64,000 nucleotides of DNA from a virus: positions 19,607 through 83,606 of the IMG/VR virus record IMGVR_UViG_3300043539_002606. The stretch is one strand, 5' to 3'. This document shows positions 3,952 through 64,000 of the stretch, piece after piece (position 1 is the first letter of the stretch; each line of letters opens with the position of its first letter). A model generated the notes under the pieces. It was not told the DNA's origin, searched no databases, and saw nothing but the letters and a program-made list of their open reading frames with translations. The translations under genes were made by a program, and so were the position numbers.

Positions 3952-5432
3952 ATCTTAACTGTATATATTTTGTAATTAAAGCCTTCTTTATCATAGATAG
4001 CAACACGCTCTGCTCCATGCTTTAGGCTGAAGTTTTTCTTTTTCTTCCATGAGAAGTTATCGCTAATATCATAGACAGTGGTAGCTTGACCATTATCGCT
4101 CAATCGCAGGCCACGACCAATGCTTTGTAGAATTTTAATTTGGCTTTTGGTTGGTGCTGCAAAAATAATATTATGCAAATTGCGTATATTAATGCCTGTG
4201 CTAAAAGTAGCGCTGCTCGCAACAATAACTGCATTTGACTCGCTCTCTACTTCTCCACGTACTTTTTCGCGAACATCTGTATCTGTTTCACCACTGACAT
4301 AATAGATCTTACGATCTGGCTCCGCTGCAACCAATGCAGCATGCAACGGCTTGCCATGTTTTACTACATAGTTGAAAATTACAAGTGTATTGCCTTTGAG
4401 GCCTCGAGCAAGATTAACAATAAACCTATTGCGGGCAGAATGAGAAATAATCACATCAATCTCGCTAGCATAATCAAGCTTGCTTACTGCCTTTTTAACT
4501 TCATCATCATAATCAAGCACGATGCAGTGTATATTCAACTCTGCAAGTGTCTTGCTCTCCATAAGAGCCTTTGTTGTTGTGACTTTAAATATTGGCCCAA
4601 AATGTCCAACAAGCACACGCTCATTGCATTTGCTGCCATCAAGTGTGCCCGTTGTGCCAATGCGATAGCTTGCATTGGTCAGTGTATTCATAATTGTATT
4701 GAGACTCTTTGCTTTAAACTGATGTGCTTCATCCCCAACAATCATGCCATATTTTTTGAACCAACTTTCAGGACATGTGATTGCACTCTGCCATGTTGTG
4801 ATTGTCACTCGTGTGCCAGCAACTTCTTTTTCTTTGCCGCTATAGATGCGATGCACTAGTTTTTCAGAATCAAATTCATTATCATGAGTGCTATAGTCTG
4901 CAAAATCGCTGGCTAGCTGTTCAACAAGACTGGTCGTTGGCACAACAACTAGTGCCTTTTCAGTCTCATGATCAATATACCAACGCAGCAGCATATAAAT
5001 GATCAAGCTCTTGCCGCTGCCAGTTGGACTCAAGACAAGTGTTCTGCCGCTTGTCAAGCTTTGTACAACTGCTTCAACCTGATAATCATGTGGTGTTATG
5101 CTATTTCCACGAGCAGATAGATTTAATTTTGAAATATAGTCAATCACCTCTTGACGAGATGGCAAAGGAGCTCGCAAGCTGTCATCATAATCAACTGCAT
5201 AGCCTCGTTCTTTTGCAAATTTTGCTAGCTCACCAATCAAGCCATAAGGCAGTGTATGCGATCTTAAATTAAACAATCTGATTTTGCCATCCCAGAGTTT
5301 ATTACGATATGCAGGAATAAACTTATAGCCTTCTGCATAAAACGTAAAATGCTCACCAAGCTCCATGAGTGCACCAGTATCGGCGCTTCTCACAAAGATC
5401 TCTGCTTCATTCTTTTTACTTAGTTTAAACAC
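3948..5432 (-). CDS. uvsW: UvsW recombination helicase
   Basis: SF2 DNA/RNA helicase that drives branch migration and removes R-loops at origins, helping the switch from origin- to recombination-dependent replication. Motifs: LSPTGSGKSLI (Walker A), VVPTTSLVEQ (Ia), VGDEAHQFK (DEAH-type II), GTTGTLDG (III), STGINIRNLHNIIFA and QSIGRGLR (VI). I choose a GTG start at 5432, which overlaps the uvsY stop. From it, MFKLSKKNEAEIFVRSADTG to the conserved EGYKF is 38 residues, exactly the spacing in T4 UvsW. Starting instead at an ATG at 5528 would overlap uvsY by over 100 bases. Length from GTG is 494 aa (T4: 503). Confidence 0.93.
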   Translation of the reverse strand: MFKLSKKNEAEIFVRSADTGALMELGEHFTFYAEGYKFIPAYRNKLWDGKIRLFNLRSHTLPYGLIGELAKFAKERGYAVDYDDSLRAPLPSRQEVIDYISKLNLSARGNSITPHDYQVEAVVQSLTSGRTLVLSPTGSGKSLIIYMLLRWYIDHETEKALVVVPTTSLVEQLASDFADYSTHDNEFDSEKLVHRIYSGKEKEVAGTRVTITTWQSAITCPESWFKKYGMIVGDEAHQFKAKSLNTIMNTLTNASYRIGTTGTLDGSKCNERVLVGHFGPIFKVTTTKALMESKTLAELNIHCIVLDYDDEVKKAVSKLDYASEIDVIISHSARNRFIVNLARGLKGNTLVIFNYVVKHGKPLHAALVAAEPDRKIYYVSGETDTDVREKVRGEVESESNAVIVASSATFSTGINIRNLHNIIFAAPTKSQIKILQSIGRGLRLSDNGQATTVYDISDNFSWKKKKNFSLKHGAERVAIYDKEGFNYKIYTVKI

Positions 5433-5871
5433 CTGCTTGGAATCTCTTAAAGTCAATAATGTTCTTGATTGTTTGATGTCTCCAACGCAACGTATCAAGT
5501 ATTTCTTTGCATGTATCAACATACACACCTATATATTCACATGCCATTTTGCACTCACTGATGTCAGTGTCTGTGTTATAATACATATCCATATCACCCT
5601 TAAGTGGTTTATTCATGCCATGAAATGGATCATATATCCAGCCTCGCGCATCCATTTCATCCTTTGTCATTTTGCCATTATAATAGAGCCACTTATCTTT
5701 TTTAAGTATGGCAAGATCAAGCTCTTTCTTTTTTAATCTCAGTTTGGCAACTGTATGGAATTCAAGATATTTGCTATGCAGCATTGCACCTCGTAAGGTT
5801 GTTTCATCAAGCGCATGCTCACTAATCTTTGAATCATTTGCCCATTGTTTTAATAGCTCTTCGACATCCAT
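5425..5871 (-). CDS. uvsY: UvsY recombination mediator
   Basis: Loads UvsX recombinase on gp32-covered single-stranded DNA. The 148-residue protein matches T4 UvsY (137 aa) in layout: an N-terminal helix MDVEELLKQW, the LHSKYLEFHTVAKLRLKK helix with its basic cluster, LDYY-like WLYYNGK, and the C-terminal IKNIIDFKRFQAGV that mirrors T4's 'IKHIQDMRAFEAGK'. It lies directly upstream of uvsW as in related phages, and its stop overlaps the proposed GTG start of uvsW. Confidence 0.85.
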   Translation of the reverse strand: MDVEELLKQWANDSKISEHALDETTLRGAMLHSKYLEFHTVAKLRLKKKELDLAILKKDKWLYYNGKMTKDEMDARGWIYDPFHGMNKPLKGDMDMYYNTDTDISECKMACEYIGVYVDTCKEILDTLRWRHQTIKNIIDFKRFQAGV

Positions 5872-58515: not shown

Positions 58516-58753
58516 ATTCTGCTGAGATTAGACTATCATATTTGAAACTGCGCCAGCCGTTTTTCTCGAGATCGTAAACTCGAACTGGAGAATCCTCAGT
58601 TTCAACAATAGTGTTTTTGGGAATTGCATCTTCGGGCAAGAGTGAGAGGTTTTTAGTAGCTCTCATAGCTCGATGCTCGCCATCTTTTTTAATGAATGTG
58701 ATATTGCACACACCGCTTCTTAGACTCTCATTGAGTTGTTGTTTGTCCATCAT
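58505..58753 (-). CDS. WYL_2/DUF2693-type Sm-like SH3-barrel protein
   Basis: The 82-residue protein follows the pattern 'L--g---ItFiKkDGe-R-mr-T--l--iP------------v-V-dl---gWRSF'. It reads NESLRSGVCNITFIKKDGEH, RAMRATKNLSLLPEDAIPKN and RVYDLEKNGWRSFKYDSLIS. This family of small SH3-like barrels is frequent in T4-type phages and may bind nucleic acid or RNA polymerase. It overlaps both neighbours by a few bases, so it belongs to the operon starting at 59490. Confidence 0.75.
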   Translation of the reverse strand: MMDKQQLNESLRSGVCNITFIKKDGEHRAMRATKNLSLLPEDAIPKNTIVETEDSPVRVYDLEKNGWRSFKYDSLISAEYEK

Positions 58754-59490
58754 AATAGTTTTGCTCTTTCAGTTAATAAAAATTTGCTTGCTAAATCTGC
58801 GTTGAATTCTGTTTTTAGTTTGCTTGATTCCATGACTTTCACTAGTTCATTTTTTCCTGCTTCAACCATGCTAACTAAATCATCTTTAGTAAAAAGTTCA
58901 GGTTTAGTTTTAACAGCCATTAGCAATTCATGATACTCACGATCAACATCGCTGACTCGAACAACATACTCGCCATGCTCATAGAGATATTTTCCAACAA
59001 AGACTAGGCGCAGCAATTGAGTAAAATTTTTGGGACTAAATCCAAATGTTTCAAGCTTTTGTTTTCTTAAACTTCCTAGTTGGCCTTTACGCTCGCCTAT
59101 AGCGCGTCGAGTTTCTGAGTGAACATAGCCAAGCAAACTCTGCTTTAATTTTTCACTATCAAATAGTTCATATTTTCTAGAGCGTAGATATTCAAACTCA
59201 GGAGTCATAACACTAAATGCGCTAAGCGGCGCAAATAAGACTTCCATTACTTGAGTATTTGTTTTTCTTAGTAGACTTAGAAAGTGGGCTAGTTCATAAA
59301 AGGCGGCGTCAACGTCTCCAGTTTTTACCATGCTTGAATGATCTTTGAAGCCTGCTGCAACCTGTAAATCAGTTGTTGCATAGACTCCACGATAATCAGT
59401 ATCGCTCTCTGGAGTATCAAGTCCATAGAGCTTACTGCCGCCAACAAGAAGCGCATGAGTTTTTGTTTGTGGATGTTCAACATTTAACAT
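58750..59490 (-). CDS. RlaP-type nucleotidyltransferase
   Basis: A polymerase-beta superfamily nucleotidyltransferase of the RlaP/YcgL-like type (PF10127), 246 aa. The active-site strand is GGSKLYGLDTPESDTDYRGV (about residues 17-36), with the paired acids in SDTDYRG. EVLFAPLSAF and a helical C-terminal half follow. Homologues in T4-type phages are annotated as nucleotidyltransferases thought to act on RNA ends. It is the first gene of an operon that continues to gp33 and gp59. A host-type promoter ends six bases before the ATG, so the mRNA should be leaderless. Confidence 0.85.
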   Translation of the reverse strand: MLNVEHPQTKTHALLVGGSKLYGLDTPESDTDYRGVYATTDLQVAAGFKDHSSMVKTGDVDAAFYELAHFLSLLRKTNTQVMEVLFAPLSAFSVMTPEFEYLRSRKYELFDSEKLKQSLLGYVHSETRRAIGERKGQLGSLRKQKLETFGFSPKNFTQLLRLVFVGKYLYEHGEYVVRVSDVDREYHELLMAVKTKPELFTKDDLVSMVEAGKNELVKVMESSKLKTEFNADLASKFLLTERAKLL

Positions 59491-59533: not shown

Positions 59534-60481
59534 TCAATGAAATGCTCTATTCTTTTCAAAGTCCCCAAAATCTCCCCATTCACGATAGCTGCTTACTGTG
59601 TCAACATCTACTTTGGAGAGATTGCGATTAATATGTGCATCAGCTCCCACATTCATAAAGATTGCCCGCTCACTTGCTCTTTCAAAGAAAGCTGGCCAAG
59701 CTTTGGCATCATATGCCGCAGTAGTTGGAAATGGCACGCAGCTTGCCTGAGGATGAGGCTTTAAAAATGGCATTGTGGCAGTTTCAACAATTGCATCTCC
59801 CTTTTCACCCTTATGAATATTACGAGCAACAGCAACACCATATGCACCTGCTTCTGGCCAGCCAATCTGACATGCTCGAGTCATTGTGCCTGTTGATACT
59901 GCACACCATATTTCACGAGGCTCATAGCCTAATTGAGTGCTAATCTTATCACACATTCTTACCAGACCAGCAGTAACCATAGCATTTCCACTAAGACCAA
60001 ATGGCAGATATTGTGCATTATTCTCACTTGCCCATTGTTTAGCATAGCTGTTTAATACTGGCATTGCTGCAATACGAACAAATCTCATATCAACATGAGG
60101 ATATGCAAAGAGTGCTGCCTGATGATCACTTACTCGTTTACTGCTCGGACAAAAGAAAACAACCTTTTTATTATAGAGCTCAGCAAGCATGCTAATAGCA
60201 TCCATAGCGTGACCTTGTCGAGGCGCACAATAAACAAGTGTGTCATAAGGACTTTCAGCAACTACTCGCTCTGCACCAAATGCTTTTAATCCGCCTGGTG
60301 CAAGATCTGCTCGTAGCACATGTCTGCCACCTTCAACCGTTTCAACAACAGGATCATCAACCTTGCTCTTAAAATCTCCCCATAGTTCTCGATAATAATC
60401 ACGAGCCTCAGCTCGATTCATGCCCATCGGTATATCTTTATTTTCAATGCTGTCTGTTATGCTAAACATGTTTGTCCCCAA
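59534..60481 (-). CDS. PLP-dependent fold-type-II enzyme-like protein
   Basis: The 315-residue protein resembles tryptophan-synthase-beta/cysteine-synthase-type PLP enzymes. RADLAPGGLKAFGAERVV (about 53-70) holds the expected Schiff-base Lys. YCAPRQGHAMDAISMLAELY + NKKVVFFCPSS parallels the 'sSGNhG-alA--A---G-k--v--P' substrate loop, although Ser-Gly-Asn is changed to Pro-Arg-Gln-Gly-His. AVSTGTMTRACQIGWP parallels the 'G-GG---G' phosphate loop. It would act on an amino-acid-like substrate by beta-elimination/replacement or deamination. It overlaps the SGNH-like gene by 25 bases. Context with the amino acid:DNA transferase-like genes suggests a role in tailoring modified DNA bases. Confidence 0.6.
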   Translation of the reverse strand: MGTNMFSITDSIENKDIPMGMNRAEARDYYRELWGDFKSKVDDPVVETVEGGRHVLRADLAPGGLKAFGAERVVAESPYDTLVYCAPRQGHAMDAISMLAELYNKKVVFFCPSSKRVSDHQAALFAYPHVDMRFVRIAAMPVLNSYAKQWASENNAQYLPFGLSGNAMVTAGLVRMCDKISTQLGYEPREIWCAVSTGTMTRACQIGWPEAGAYGVAVARNIHKGEKGDAIVETATMPFLKPHPQASCVPFPTTAAYDAKAWPAFFERASERAIFMNVGADAHINRNLSKVDVDTVSSYREWGDFGDFEKNRAFH

Positions 60482-61452
60482 TCTCTTCTACGATAATATT
60501 CTGGTGATAGATGTACGCTGCTGCTATTCTCCATATGGACCTTTGCAAACTTTTCACCGTCCATGCTATACCATTCATTTGGAGGAGATACTACTCTCCC
60601 ACCTGTTAGTTTATTTAGTGTATCAATATATCTCAATGTGAGCTCTAGTCGTGCCTCACGAGTGCCATAAAATGGAGTGCCCTTATAATAGCCAGTTTTT
60701 GGCAGCTTGCGCTCTTCATGCTCGACTGGCACTGGTGCGCTATAGTGTACTTCACAGCCATATTCACACCCAATTGCATCGCCTTGTTTGACATATTCTC
60801 GCAGCAGTTCATCAAGATTAAAGTTATCATGACGCAGCATGTGATGGCGAATGTCAATATTGCTAAGACAAAAAGTAATGTTTCCAAATGGTGTTATGCC
60901 TCTAAATTCATCTTTCAACCCACGTTTAAGTGTGCCATATAATGTTTTGCCATTTGCTCGAAAAACAAGATCGCTCTTTCGACTAAAGCTAGGGCTATGA
61001 CTATCACCAATTGTTATGCCATCGAAATGATTAACATATGCCTTTGGCAAATCTTCTTGAGCTAGCTTTTTTACGCGCTGCAGATTTTTGCTTAGCGCAG
61101 CACACCATTCCTCTGTTATGCCATGATATGTTGTTGGAGCACCAATTCTTTTTGCTAGCTGAGCTCCCCAATCGGGCATATCAATATCAAGACTGACTAC
61201 ATATGGATGTGCAGCGACTCGATTAATGCGATCATAGATTTCTTTTGTTGCTCCACCAAAAAGATTAAGTGTGCCGCCAAAATTGACACCATGTTCAATA
61301 AAGCAGACATCCCAGTTTAAAATATCTGGACTGCAGGCATGATCAATTAGAGCTTGCAGTTGATCACTCCATACACTGCTCCAGCCCAACACGTGACTAT
61401 TTTTTAGTCGAGGAATATTGCTAATCGGATTTGTAATTATTGCATCTGACAT
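60457..61452 (-). CDS. SGNH-hydrolase-like protein
   Basis: The 331-residue protein has HFDGITIGDSHSPSFSRKSD (about 142-161), where GDSH is the block I Ser of SGNH esterases, GNITFCLSNIDIRHHMLRHD (about 196-215), resembling blocks III to IV, and a late His in HMENSSSVHLSPEYYRRRD. The N-terminal 140 residues are unlike SGNH proteins (LGWSSVWSDQLQALIDHACS, DVCFIEHGVNFGGTLNLFGG) and might be a separate Rossmann-like domain. No signal peptide. A host-type promoter ends six bases before the ATG. It may be an esterase, acyltransferase or a catalytically altered relative. Confidence 0.5.
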   Translation of the reverse strand: MSDAIITNPISNIPRLKNSHVLGWSSVWSDQLQALIDHACSPDILNWDVCFIEHGVNFGGTLNLFGGATKEIYDRINRVAAHPYVVSLDIDMPDWGAQLAKRIGAPTTYHGITEEWCAALSKNLQRVKKLAQEDLPKAYVNHFDGITIGDSHSPSFSRKSDLVFRANGKTLYGTLKRGLKDEFRGITPFGNITFCLSNIDIRHHMLRHDNFNLDELLREYVKQGDAIGCEYGCEVHYSAPVPVEHEERKLPKTGYYKGTPFYGTREARLELTLRYIDTLNKLTGGRVVSPPNEWYSMDGEKFAKVHMENSSSVHLSPEYYRRRDWGQTCLA

Positions 61453-61458
61453 AATCTA

Positions 61459-61487
61459 AATATACCATATGGATGGCAATAAGTAAA
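61459..61487 (-). promoter_or_regulatory. Host-type promoter of the SGNH-like/PLP gene pair
   Basis: Minus-strand TTTACT (61487-61482), 17 bases, TATATT (61464-61459), then six bases to ATG 61452. Same -35 and leaderless spacing as the promoters of gp55 and the nucleotidyltransferase. Confidence 0.6.
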
Positions 61488-61490
61488 ACA

Positions 61491-62096
61491 TTAAATATTA
61501 TCGTTTTTATAATTGTAACTCTTCAAGCATAAAAATTCCCATAGACGTTCTATTGCCCATGGAGTTCTATACTTATATTCTGTTTCTTGTAAAATTGTAT
61601 TTGTAGGCCACTCTAAATTTTCTAATAGAGTCTGTGCAAGTGGCTTAAATTTAATGCAGCATTCATTACTCAATTTAAAATTAGCATATGGACAAAATGA
61701 CCACCAATTGGGGAGTTGAATATCACCCAATGATGCAACTTCTGCACACGGGAATTTCCAATGTGAACACCACGGTTCGCCGTAATGGTTAGACATATAG
61801 CAATAATCACCAATCCATTCAAATGGACTTTCAGTAAATTTACATAATAAATTTACGTCACTAATATGGTCAGATGGGTTACCCTGAGTAAAAACTGTAT
61901 TTGCTGCATATTCATTTGCATTTACTATATGCCAAAGATATGTATGAGACTCTCTGCCTATATTAGGTAAAACATTATCAAAAGACTGGTCTGTTCCTTT
62001 ATGATATATTGTAATTTTATCAAACCTTGAAGATATAGAATCTAACCATGAAAGATCTTCGTTATAATGTGATACTACTAATTCTGAATTTAACAT
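61491..62096 (-). CDS. DUF3431-family protein
   Basis: The 201-residue protein matches DUF3431 in order: ELVVSHYNEDLSWLDSI ('vvahynEdl-Wl'), ITIYHKG ('iYnKg'), NIGRESHTYLWHIVNAN ('nvGREa-tYL-yIi-nY') and TVFTQGNPSDH ('tvFlQG-p--H'). Family function is unknown. The pattern is glycosyltransferase-like and proteins of this family occur beside surface-glycan genes. A late-promoter-like box lies nine bases upstream, so it may be expressed late, unlike its neighbours. Confidence 0.8.
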   Translation of the reverse strand: MLNSELVVSHYNEDLSWLDSISSRFDKITIYHKGTDQSFDNVLPNIGRESHTYLWHIVNANEYAANTVFTQGNPSDHISDVNLLCKFTESPFEWIGDYCYMSNHYGEPWCSHWKFPCAEVASLGDIQLPNWWSFCPYANFKLSNECCIKFKPLAQTLLENLEWPTNTILQETEYKYRTPWAIERLWEFLCLKSYNYKNDNI

Positions 62097-62105
62097 AATT
62101 GAATT

Positions 62106-62113
62106 TATTTATC
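62106..62113 (-). promoter_or_regulatory. Late-promoter-like GATAAATA of the DUF3431 gene
   Basis: Minus-strand GATAAATA ends nine bases before ATG 62096 and overlaps the stop of the upstream gene. Confidence 0.55.
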
Positions 62114-63113
62114 TTGGATATACTTTAATGCTATCACTTCTTTTTGCTAGATCAAAACTATCTGGAAAAATCCAGTTATAAGGTATGCGTTTGGTTGGTC
62201 GCTTCTCACCACGACCAATCGCGAGATGTTTCCATGCGAAACATGTCTTGTCTTCACAATTCAACATCTTTTGACTTGTCATAGGATTACGAGGATCCTC
62301 ACAAAGTATTTTCATTTGTTGCAACCACAGTTCAGCTTGTTTGTTGAGCGGCTTAAATTCACCATCTTCATCAACATCATATTTGACTTTGCCATTAAGA
62401 TTATCTCCACCAAAGATTTGATGCAAGCCATCAAAATGGCCAGTGCCGCCAAAGAGAACTGTTTCAGGATCAACAAGATGAGGATAGCTCATAGCTATAT
62501 AGCGTGCAGTGTTTTTGCAAGGATAGAGAGGACTGCGAAAGCCTTGTGCTTTCTTAAAATAAGCCTCAAGCTTTTTAGCAAAGCCCATCATTGTATAGGG
62601 TTTGTCACGACCTTCAAAAATATCTTGCAAATCATGAGCTGCTCTCAATGGTCCATCAAGCAACCACTCTTTTACATTGGTGCCCTTTGGATAATAGATT
62701 TGGAAAAGATCATTACGAGCATGACGATTATTCACAAAATGTTGTCGTGTTGCATCAATGCCATGATCCTTTAATAGTTTGAAAGTGCCCCAATGTTCAT
62801 TACTAAAAGAGAACACAAGCGTATAGAACAATCGATCAACTGGATCTGTTACCTCTGCCATCTCATAGCAATATGGATGTTCATGCCAATGCAATCGGTG
62901 AGAAAAGATTTGATAGTCATCTCTTAATAAACGATCATCACGCTCATCAAAGACTCGACAAAAATTAAAAAATGCTTCAAGCCGCGTATCAAGGCTATGT
63001 TCTCGCATCCAGCTGTCAGTTGGTTTTTTGCCCTTCATGGGAACATCAACAAGTTCTGGCCAGACAATATCGATTGTTGGCTCATCAATAAATTCGCTTA
63101 AACTGTTTTGCAT
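62109..63113 (-). CDS. Helical enzyme-like protein, possible alpha-glutamyl/putrescinyl-thymine pyrophosphorylase relative
   Basis: The 334-residue protein is largely helical, with conserved-looking blocks: SLDTRLEAFFNFCRVFDERD, YEMAEVTDPVDRLFYTLVFS, FSNEHWGTFKLLKDHG, RSPLYPCKNTARYIAMSYPH, LFGGTGHFDGLHQIFGG and CFAWKHLAIGRGEKRPTK. The helical plan and the pairing with the next gene recall the phage enzymes that replace the pyrophosphate on hydroxymethyl-uracil in DNA with an amine (aGPT-PPlase/amino acid:DNA transferase). I cannot confirm family membership by eye. It overlaps the upstream gene by 16 bases. Confidence 0.4.
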   Translation of the reverse strand: MQNSLSEFIDEPTIDIVWPELVDVPMKGKKPTDSWMREHSLDTRLEAFFNFCRVFDERDDRLLRDDYQIFSHRLHWHEHPYCYEMAEVTDPVDRLFYTLVFSFSNEHWGTFKLLKDHGIDATRQHFVNNRHARNDLFQIYYPKGTNVKEWLLDGPLRAAHDLQDIFEGRDKPYTMMGFAKKLEAYFKKAQGFRSPLYPCKNTARYIAMSYPHLVDPETVLFGGTGHFDGLHQIFGGDNLNGKVKYDVDEDGEFKPLNKQAELWLQQMKILCEDPRNPMTSQKMLNCEDKTCFAWKHLAIGRGEKRPTKRIPYNWIFPDSFDLAKRSDSIKVYPR

Positions 63114-64000
63114 AGATCTTTATATTGTTGCACGCTCATGCCTGCACTCTTAATTATAGCATCATCACTAGGATGATTTTTCATGCCATTAAAACTCTTT
63201 ACAAGCCCAAGCTCTAGCATTGCCTTTTGTCGACCATAAGGATGATCTTTAATGCGGCAGCTGCTCCAAACTTGATCAAGATCTAGATGATCATAGTCTG
63301 CACCGGGTCTAATAAAATTTTCAATCCATCTTATAAAATCACAACATACATCTTCAGCATTATATGGCACACTGCCTGTATCGGCATAGATACGCATCAT
63401 AATCTCATCAAGAAAAGCATCAGCTGACATTTTAACAGTTGGCTTTGCAAGATAGCCTATGCACTCCCGAGCATTTGTGCCATAATAGAATAGACTATCT
63501 CGATGCACAAACTCTGGCAGCCAGTCGGCAATGTCAGCAACAATTGCAGCATATTGAAATGCATAGCGTTTCAAGCCATGCGCACTATTCCAATCAAGCA
63601 TCCAATCACCAATCTCTCGAAGAGTTTTGCGACCACCACATTCAAGGTATCGTGCAAGATCGTATGCTAGATTTGGTGCAAATTCACAGAGATAATAATC
63701 ACCGCCTCGTTTATAACCATCTGGTGGTTTTGGAAAGCTTGGAAATTGATAGCCACAGCTTGTGTAAAAAGGCTTTGGATGATTCTTAACAATGGTTGTC
63801 ATGTCATCAATGCTCTGCGCCGTGTGTAGATTAAAGAGCAGTGTATTGTGATAGCCACTTGGTTTTGTGGCATAGTTGATCGCGCTGCCGCATACTCGAT
63901 GCAAGATAAAGACATAGAGCCATTCTGGCAAACCAAAGCTACGACGCTTATCAGTCCAGTTTTGAGCAACTGCAACTCTATAGGCATGCGCTTCTCCATT
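63098..64000 (-). CDS. Possible amino acid:DNA transferase-like protein, partial at its N-terminus
   Basis: At least 300 residues; the frame is open to the window edge, so the true start lies outside (a TTG at 63931 is not needed). Blocks: LHRVCGSAINYATKPSGYHN (about 33-52 of the visible part), FYTSCGYQFPSFPKPPDGYK, HGLKRYAFQYAAIVADIADW, FYYGTNARECIGYL and YNAEDVCCDFIRWIENFIRP. The 'tGsgINYa-kPSGYhNtlL' and 'KRYAFQY---aDiAdwlP' blocks look like those of large phage proteins annotated as amino acid:DNA transferases in thymidine-hypermodifying phages. The resemblance is from memory and needs a profile search. Confidence 0.4.
   Translation of the reverse strand, partial: NGEAHAYRVAVAQNWTDKRRSFGLPEWLYVFILHRVCGSAINYATKPSGYHNTLLFNLHTAQSIDDMTTIVKNHPKPFYTSCGYQFPSFPKPPDGYKRGGDYYLCEFAPNLAYDLARYLECGGRKTLREIGDWMLDWNSAHGLKRYAFQYAAIVADIADWLPEFVHRDSLFYYGTNARECIGYLAKPTVKMSADAFLDEIMMRIYADTGSVPYNAEDVCCDFIRWIENFIRPGADYDHLDLDQVWSSCRIKDHPYGRQKAMLELGLVKSFNGMKNHPSDDAIIKSAGMSVQQYKDLCKTV

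Follow-up and report, generated by a model that had tools for sequence, protein, structure and literature searches.

Phages related to M6, such as SN1, combine a hydroxymethylase with aGPT-Pplase1, a kinase, a radical SAM (rSAM) protein, a PLP enzyme and aGPT-Pplase2 (PMC9476957). In Pseudomonas phage M6, gp51-gp55 were identified as ADDT, PLP enzyme, radical SAM protein, HMUDK P-loop protein and HMUDK_hel, respectively, in agreement with the published SN1 cassette. A different system, CmoX/CmoY of Synechococcus phage S-B43, is associated with 5-carboxymethylcytosine-glycine in DNA (PMC12783734). Here we describe a cluster of genes (P1 to P5) from an uncultured phage. That it is a cassette for hypermodification is well supported; its best explanation is probably a post-replicative cytosine hypermodification cassette, most likely a new version of the M6-type pathway directed at cytosine, with chemistry that is predicted. 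No description of this gene combination was found in the literature searched; the search was incomplete and an earlier mention is possible.

Genomic context and conservation of the cassette

The window, i.e., the whole stretch of 64,000 nucleotides analyzed, comprises bases 19607-83606 of the 83,606-base linear virus record IMGVR_UViG_3300043539_002606, whose T4 baseplate and neck genes identify the phage as a T4-like myovirus. The end of the window is the end of the contig, and P5 lacks its start because the cassette is located there. All five open reading frames reported in the first-pass annotation as contiguous on one strand are present in this arrangement (Table 1). An RlaP-type nucleotidyltransferase gene (PF10127, E 3e-17; window positions 58750-59490) adjoins the cassette and was not found in the loci of relatives.

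Table 1. Positions of the cassette genes in the window and of the hydroxymethylase gene of the same record
Feature	Position	Strand	Remarks
P5	63098..64000	-	300 of about 388 aa (length in relatives); 5' end lost at contig end
P4	62109..63113	-	overlaps P5; distant P5 paralog, candidate transferase of the same superfamily
P3	61491..62096	-	weak DUF3431 match; inserted between P4 and P2
P2	60457..61452	-	GDSH/SGNH-like motifs; N-terminal part T4 beta-glucosyltransferase-like
P1	59534..60481	-	fold-type-II PLP enzyme; PHROG family of M6 gp52
Hydroxymethylase	4916-5632 of the record (outside the window)		T4 gp42-like

Searches of IMG/VR located P5 relatives at 280 places and P4 relatives at 136; neither protein had a match at E 0.01 among 50,697 phage records. 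After removal of duplicate contigs, 150 loci were compared, of which 147 hold P5, 136 P4, 88 P2 and 85 P1. P5 and P4 are encoded on the same strand in all loci containing both (133/133) and are adjacent genes in 90. The dN/dS ratios of P5, P4, P2 and P1, determined against the 94%-identical relative L003, are 0.05-0.14. The cluster is genuine, conserved and under purifying selection, and a chance arrangement was dismissed.

Regarding the loci that hold uvsX, the cassette lies immediately before this gene in 22 of 27, with the hydroxymethylase gene upstream in 18 of these 22; this slot is that of T4 beta-gt and of the RB69 modification cluster. P1 is absent from one 103-kb cassette record, and in another record (G007) a divergent P5 (23% identity) immediately precedes P1. 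In a 183-kb phage, a divergent additional P5 copy (L278:4161-6111) is directly followed by P1 and lies close to an Asp-type hydroxymethylase. Four contigs with P5 relatives (L271-L274) were binned into bacterial MAGs and are probably phage contigs.

Between P4 and P2, P3 occurs in this phage only; at this point the P4 and P2 genes of relatives overlap. The GC content of P3 is 31.8%, compared with 39-43% for the cassette, and P3 is a recent insertion. It had initially been counted into the cluster as a DUF3431 protein. A weak match to that family was recovered (17.9 bits, cut-off 25), but on account of its low GC content and its absence from 94%-identical relatives P3 was dropped as a core part, and it probably stands outside the system.

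Several further genes were observed in the loci of relatives. A UDG-superfamily-like gene often lies between the dCMP deaminase gene and P5 (L007:1978-2394 and 33 other loci; PF03167, E 1.6e-4 in L031); its product might act in the repair of deaminated hmC or else in modification. In a lineage without nearby P1 and P2, an HhH-GPD DNA glycosylase gene is found near P5 (L114:2822-3613 and 37 other loci). A gene of the C5-cytosine methylase family (PF00145, E 9.8e-17) is present in the cassette region at L078:14242-15465 and at 5 other loci. At L142:11068-11739 and 8 other loci, all of one lineage, P4 and P1 are separated by a gene that resembles LOG on visual inspection (phosphoribohydrolase/lysine-decarboxylase-like).

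Relationships of the encoded proteins

P1 yielded a sub-threshold match to PALP in Pfam (12.4 bits) and matched phrog_7093 ('threonine dehydratase') at E 3.6e-60; M6 gp52 matches the same family at E 2.2e-159. A P1-family profile built without M6 recovered M6 gp52 at 0.0016 and M6-like relatives down to 8e-6. In the PDB, the family profile matched cysteine synthase at E 4.7e-7. The candidate Schiff-base residue, Lys66, is invariant across the P1 family, M6 gp52 included. The matches to phrog_7093 and to cysteine synthase therefore confirm at the sequence level what had been proposed for P1, namely a fold-type-II PLP enzyme, here of the PHROG family of M6 gp52. Because M6 gp52 is itself a member of this PHROG family, the type-II PLP enzyme is not new to such systems, and the claim of a new combination holds for the SGNH-like partner (P2) only. 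Relatives of P1 also occur in Erythrobacter and Microcystis phages (L161:2326-4764 and L160:7965-8675), fused or adjacent to ParB-like domains and to phrog_498/12517 domains labelled 'DNA methyltransferase'; these are perhaps another modification system.

P4 and P5 had been likened to the ADDT/aGPT-PPlase families. The two window proteins gave no meaningful match in Pfam or PHROG, with nothing for HMUDK_hel or ADDT above the Pfam cut-off, and sequence searches of the PDB were also empty. Among 42 P4 and 38 P5 family members, none scored above the gathering cut-off of a Pfam profile, ADDT and HMUDK_hel included, and direct hhalign comparisons of P5 and P4 with M6-derived HMUDK_hel and ADDT alignments stayed at noise level. 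For P5, an AlphaFold model was made from a close relative (pLDDT 85.5). Its top Foldseek match in BFVD, 63% identical, carries the name amino acid:DNA transferase. The BFVD matches, whose names are database annotation with no functional test behind them, included the ADDT-named A0A6J5LCY1 (E 1.4e-3, probability 1.00), the SP10 5-hmdU DNA kinase (8e-3), HMUDK_hel of PhiW-14 (0.017) and of RSL1 (0.18), and aGPT-PPlase1 (0.29), with endonuclease III ranked below the latter; TM-scores by target were 0.28-0.55. As judged from this model, P5 shares the HMUDK_hel/aGPT-PPlase/ADDT fold.

The profile-profile score of P5 and P4 was 35.9 over 125 columns, whereas 60 column shuffles reached 28.5 at most, and the alignment pairs the motifs GTNA.ECI / GGTGHFDG and ED..C. 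By this comparison P4 and P5 are distant paralogs, and P4 is, solely through that homology, a candidate member of the HMUDK_hel/ADDT/aGPT-PPlase superfamily. The original likening is thus retained for P5 by its predicted fold and for P4 by way of P5, but not by Pfam or PHROG profiles.

P2 proteins share invariant motifs in four blocks (GDSH..T..G..ID.RHH..SVH); a scan of these proteins against Pfam gave no SGNH profile match, so that the label SGNH-like is borne out by the motifs but not by the profiles. The Pfam model of T4 beta-glucosyltransferase (PF09198) gave a weak signal in two relatives precisely at the P2 gene; in 12 records searched for this hmC glucosyltransferase family nothing exceeded the cut-off, and the weak signals came from P2 proteins. 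When T4 BGT was used as the query, eleven P2 proteins headed the ranking of 2,292 neighbourhood genes (best E 0.0055). In hhalign, T4 BGT was the best non-member for P2, with a score of 35.2 versus at most 31.0 for real non-P2 controls and at most 24.8 in 150 shuffles. The aligned stretch contains N.FGG (BGT Asn70-Gly74), including Phe72, which helps to flip the target base. P2 has no obvious GT donor-site motifs, and its position matching Asp100, the catalytic Asp of BGT, is not invariant; in view of the latter, P2 is kept as no more than a tentative candidate for a full glucosyltransferase.

Relatives of P2 are also present in phages 44RR (Aeromonas) and IME13, both of which have T4-type hydroxymethylases. 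ORF233c of 44RR (795 aa) consists of a P2-like half (1-334) fused to a C-terminus that resembles HMUDK_hel (19.1 bits, E 9e-4, below the Pfam cut-off of 25). The likeness to BGT, together with this fusion, therefore indicates that P2, whatever its reaction, is part of the same kind of system.

The relationships of P5 and P4 could also be read as those of repair proteins with an HhH DNA-glycosylase fold, e.g., excising hmU formed by deamination of hmC, with P1 and P2 as unrelated neighbours. Foldseek searches of the PDB with P5 and P4 gave no significant match, and among the weak ones HhH glycosylases had the best TM-scores; UDG-like and HhH-GPD genes also adjoin the cassette in relatives. However, modification enzymes make up the stronger BFVD matches and endonuclease III ranks lower, the association with an M6-family PLP enzyme is constant, and a P2 relative is fused to an HMUDK_hel-like domain, which makes the repair reading improbable.

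Candidate base and predicted pathway

A search for a hydroxymethyltransferase outside the window, as the first-pass annotation had advised, found one of the dCMP type (Table 1), which is encoded apart from the cassette. It matches the T4 dCMP hydroxymethylase at E 6e-87 and is 59% identical to T4 gp42 (over 165 aa) versus 25% to the RB69 homolog; on account of these identities an RB69-type 5-hydroxy-dCMP synthase was dropped as the nearest type. The RB69 gp42 homolog reportedly produces 5-hydroxy-dCMP (PMC13390438). The residue that specifies dCMP or dUMP is Asp in the present enzyme and in 40 cassette-linked relatives, as against Asn in M6 gp58 and in canonical thymidylate synthase. In an experimental association study, phage contigs with modified cytosine differ at this position from unmodified ones, Asp marking the former, and the hydroxymethylase is linked to genes for PRA-PH and dCMP deaminase (PMC8670742). 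The present record also holds a PRA-PH gene and an Nmad1 gene (DUF1599, slightly under the cut-off).

In all 42 loci that contain both genes, the hydroxymethylase gene precedes P5 on the same strand at a distance of 1-5 genes, often with the dCMP deaminase gene in between. No PF00303 hydroxymethylase was found in three large cassette records (G013, G014 and G016), possibly because these are fragments. A search for TET/JBP found none, and a C5-MTase was present in 2 of 14 records only. Since the cassette travels with a T4-type hmC-making enzyme, cytosine is probably the decorated base. The precursor is most likely 5-hydroxymethylcytosine, not hmU; hmC as the precursor is well supported in this phage and in the group of 42 loci.

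A 5-hmdU DNA kinase was sought as well. The HMUDK P-loop kinase (PF18748) was absent from 12 records (the present one being partial), from 44RR and from IME13, with M6 as the positive control; searches for the kinase as AAA_33 and by P-loop pattern gave none either. A small P-loop kinase was found neither in the 167 kb of the cassette record G002, where the credible hits of the P-loop scan were terminase, recombination, clamp-loader, helicase, PhoH and AAA-type proteins only, nor in the 83.6 kb of the present record. Activation of the hydroxymethyl group may fall to P5 and P4 themselves or to a kinase, either of the host or one that went unrecognised; alternatively, the group may be substituted directly. 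One specific version, put forward tentatively and rather doubtful as a whole, is a kinase-free, amino-acid-derived hmC hypermodification, in which P5 and P4 would replace or activate the hydroxymethyl group without hmU-type pyrophosphorylation, and P1 and the beta-GT/GDSH-like P2 would finish the adduct.

Thymidine hypermodification via 5-hmdU, in the manner of M6 and ViI, is very unlikely: the PLP and aGPT-like proteins are such as M6 has, but the hydroxymethylase is of the T4 dCMP type with Asp, not Asn, and neither a PF18748 kinase nor TET/JBP was found. Of the earlier proposal of a base hypermodification cluster, the part that rests on the aGPT-PPlase/ADDT-like proteins and the PLP enzyme is upheld, whereas thymidine as the base is not. 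It is just as unlikely that the enzymes act before replication on free nucleotides (hm-dCMP or hm-dCTP derivatives) instead of DNA; genes for the hydroxymethylase, a dCMP deaminase and an NTP pyrophosphohydrolase lie nearby and no DNA kinase was found, but P1, P2 and P5 have relatives in DNA-level systems (M6, T4 BGT, HMUDK) and the cassette occupies the T4 beta-gt slot.

In the preferred pathway, cytosine hypermodification in DNA, the gp42-type enzyme, for which the gene and the specificity residue were observed, would form 5-hydroxymethyl-dCMP, which would replace dC at replication. P5 and P4, to judge from fold and context, would then act on hmC in DNA and couple its C5 methylene to an amino acid or amine. 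By homology to M6, P1 would trim the attached amino acid, e.g., by decarboxylation, and P2, more speculatively, would probably act on the adduct in the flipped base, e.g., as an acyltransferase or esterase. The resulting bulky base would protect the phage DNA from host nucleases. Points that weigh against this pathway are the failure of P5 and P4 to match the Pfam ADDT and HMUDK_hel profiles, the kinase sought but not found, the three cassette records lacking PF00303, the one lacking P1, and the separate location of the hydroxymethylase gene in the present record.

If this is true, aGPT-PPlase/PLP amino-acid DNA hypermodification is extended from thymine to cytosine, the cassette provides candidate enzymes for functionalising 5hmC, a base important in eukaryotes too, and bacteria should have evolved modification-dependent defences directed at the product. 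The carriers are an abundant uncultured group of T4-like phages, common in IMG/VR, in which cytosine is probably decorated in an undescribed way.

Comparison with described systems

The cassette has in common with that of Pseudomonas phage M6/SN1 two proteins of the aGPT-PPlase/ADDT/HMUDK_hel type (here as candidates), a PLP enzyme of one PHROG family and a pyrimidine hydroxymethylase. It differs in that the hydroxymethylase is of the dCMP type here and of the dUMP type there, in that no HMUDK P-loop kinase was found and no radical-SAM gene was seen beside the cassette, and in the presence of the GDSH protein P2 and of P5 and P4 proteins that fall under the profile thresholds. With the hmC glucosylation system of T4 (gene 42, beta-gt, uvsX) it shares the gp42-type hydroxymethylase and the slot before uvsX and gp41, and T4 beta-GT resembles the N-terminal part of P2; in contrast to T4, no match to the beta-GT family above the threshold was obtained in 12 records, and aGPT-like and PLP enzymes are present. 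Phage 44RR likewise has a T4-type dCMP hydroxymethylase and, in ORF233c, a P2-like N-terminal half with an HMUDK_hel-like C-terminus, but ORF233c is one fused protein of 795 aa, and 44RR has no P4 or P5 match. CmoX/CmoY is alike in that an amino acid is carried on a C5-modified cytosine of phage DNA, as proposed here; that system relies on a homolog of the Cx-SAM C5-methyltransferase together with an ATP-dependent amide ligase, whereas the present phage would use gp42 and aGPT-like proteins.
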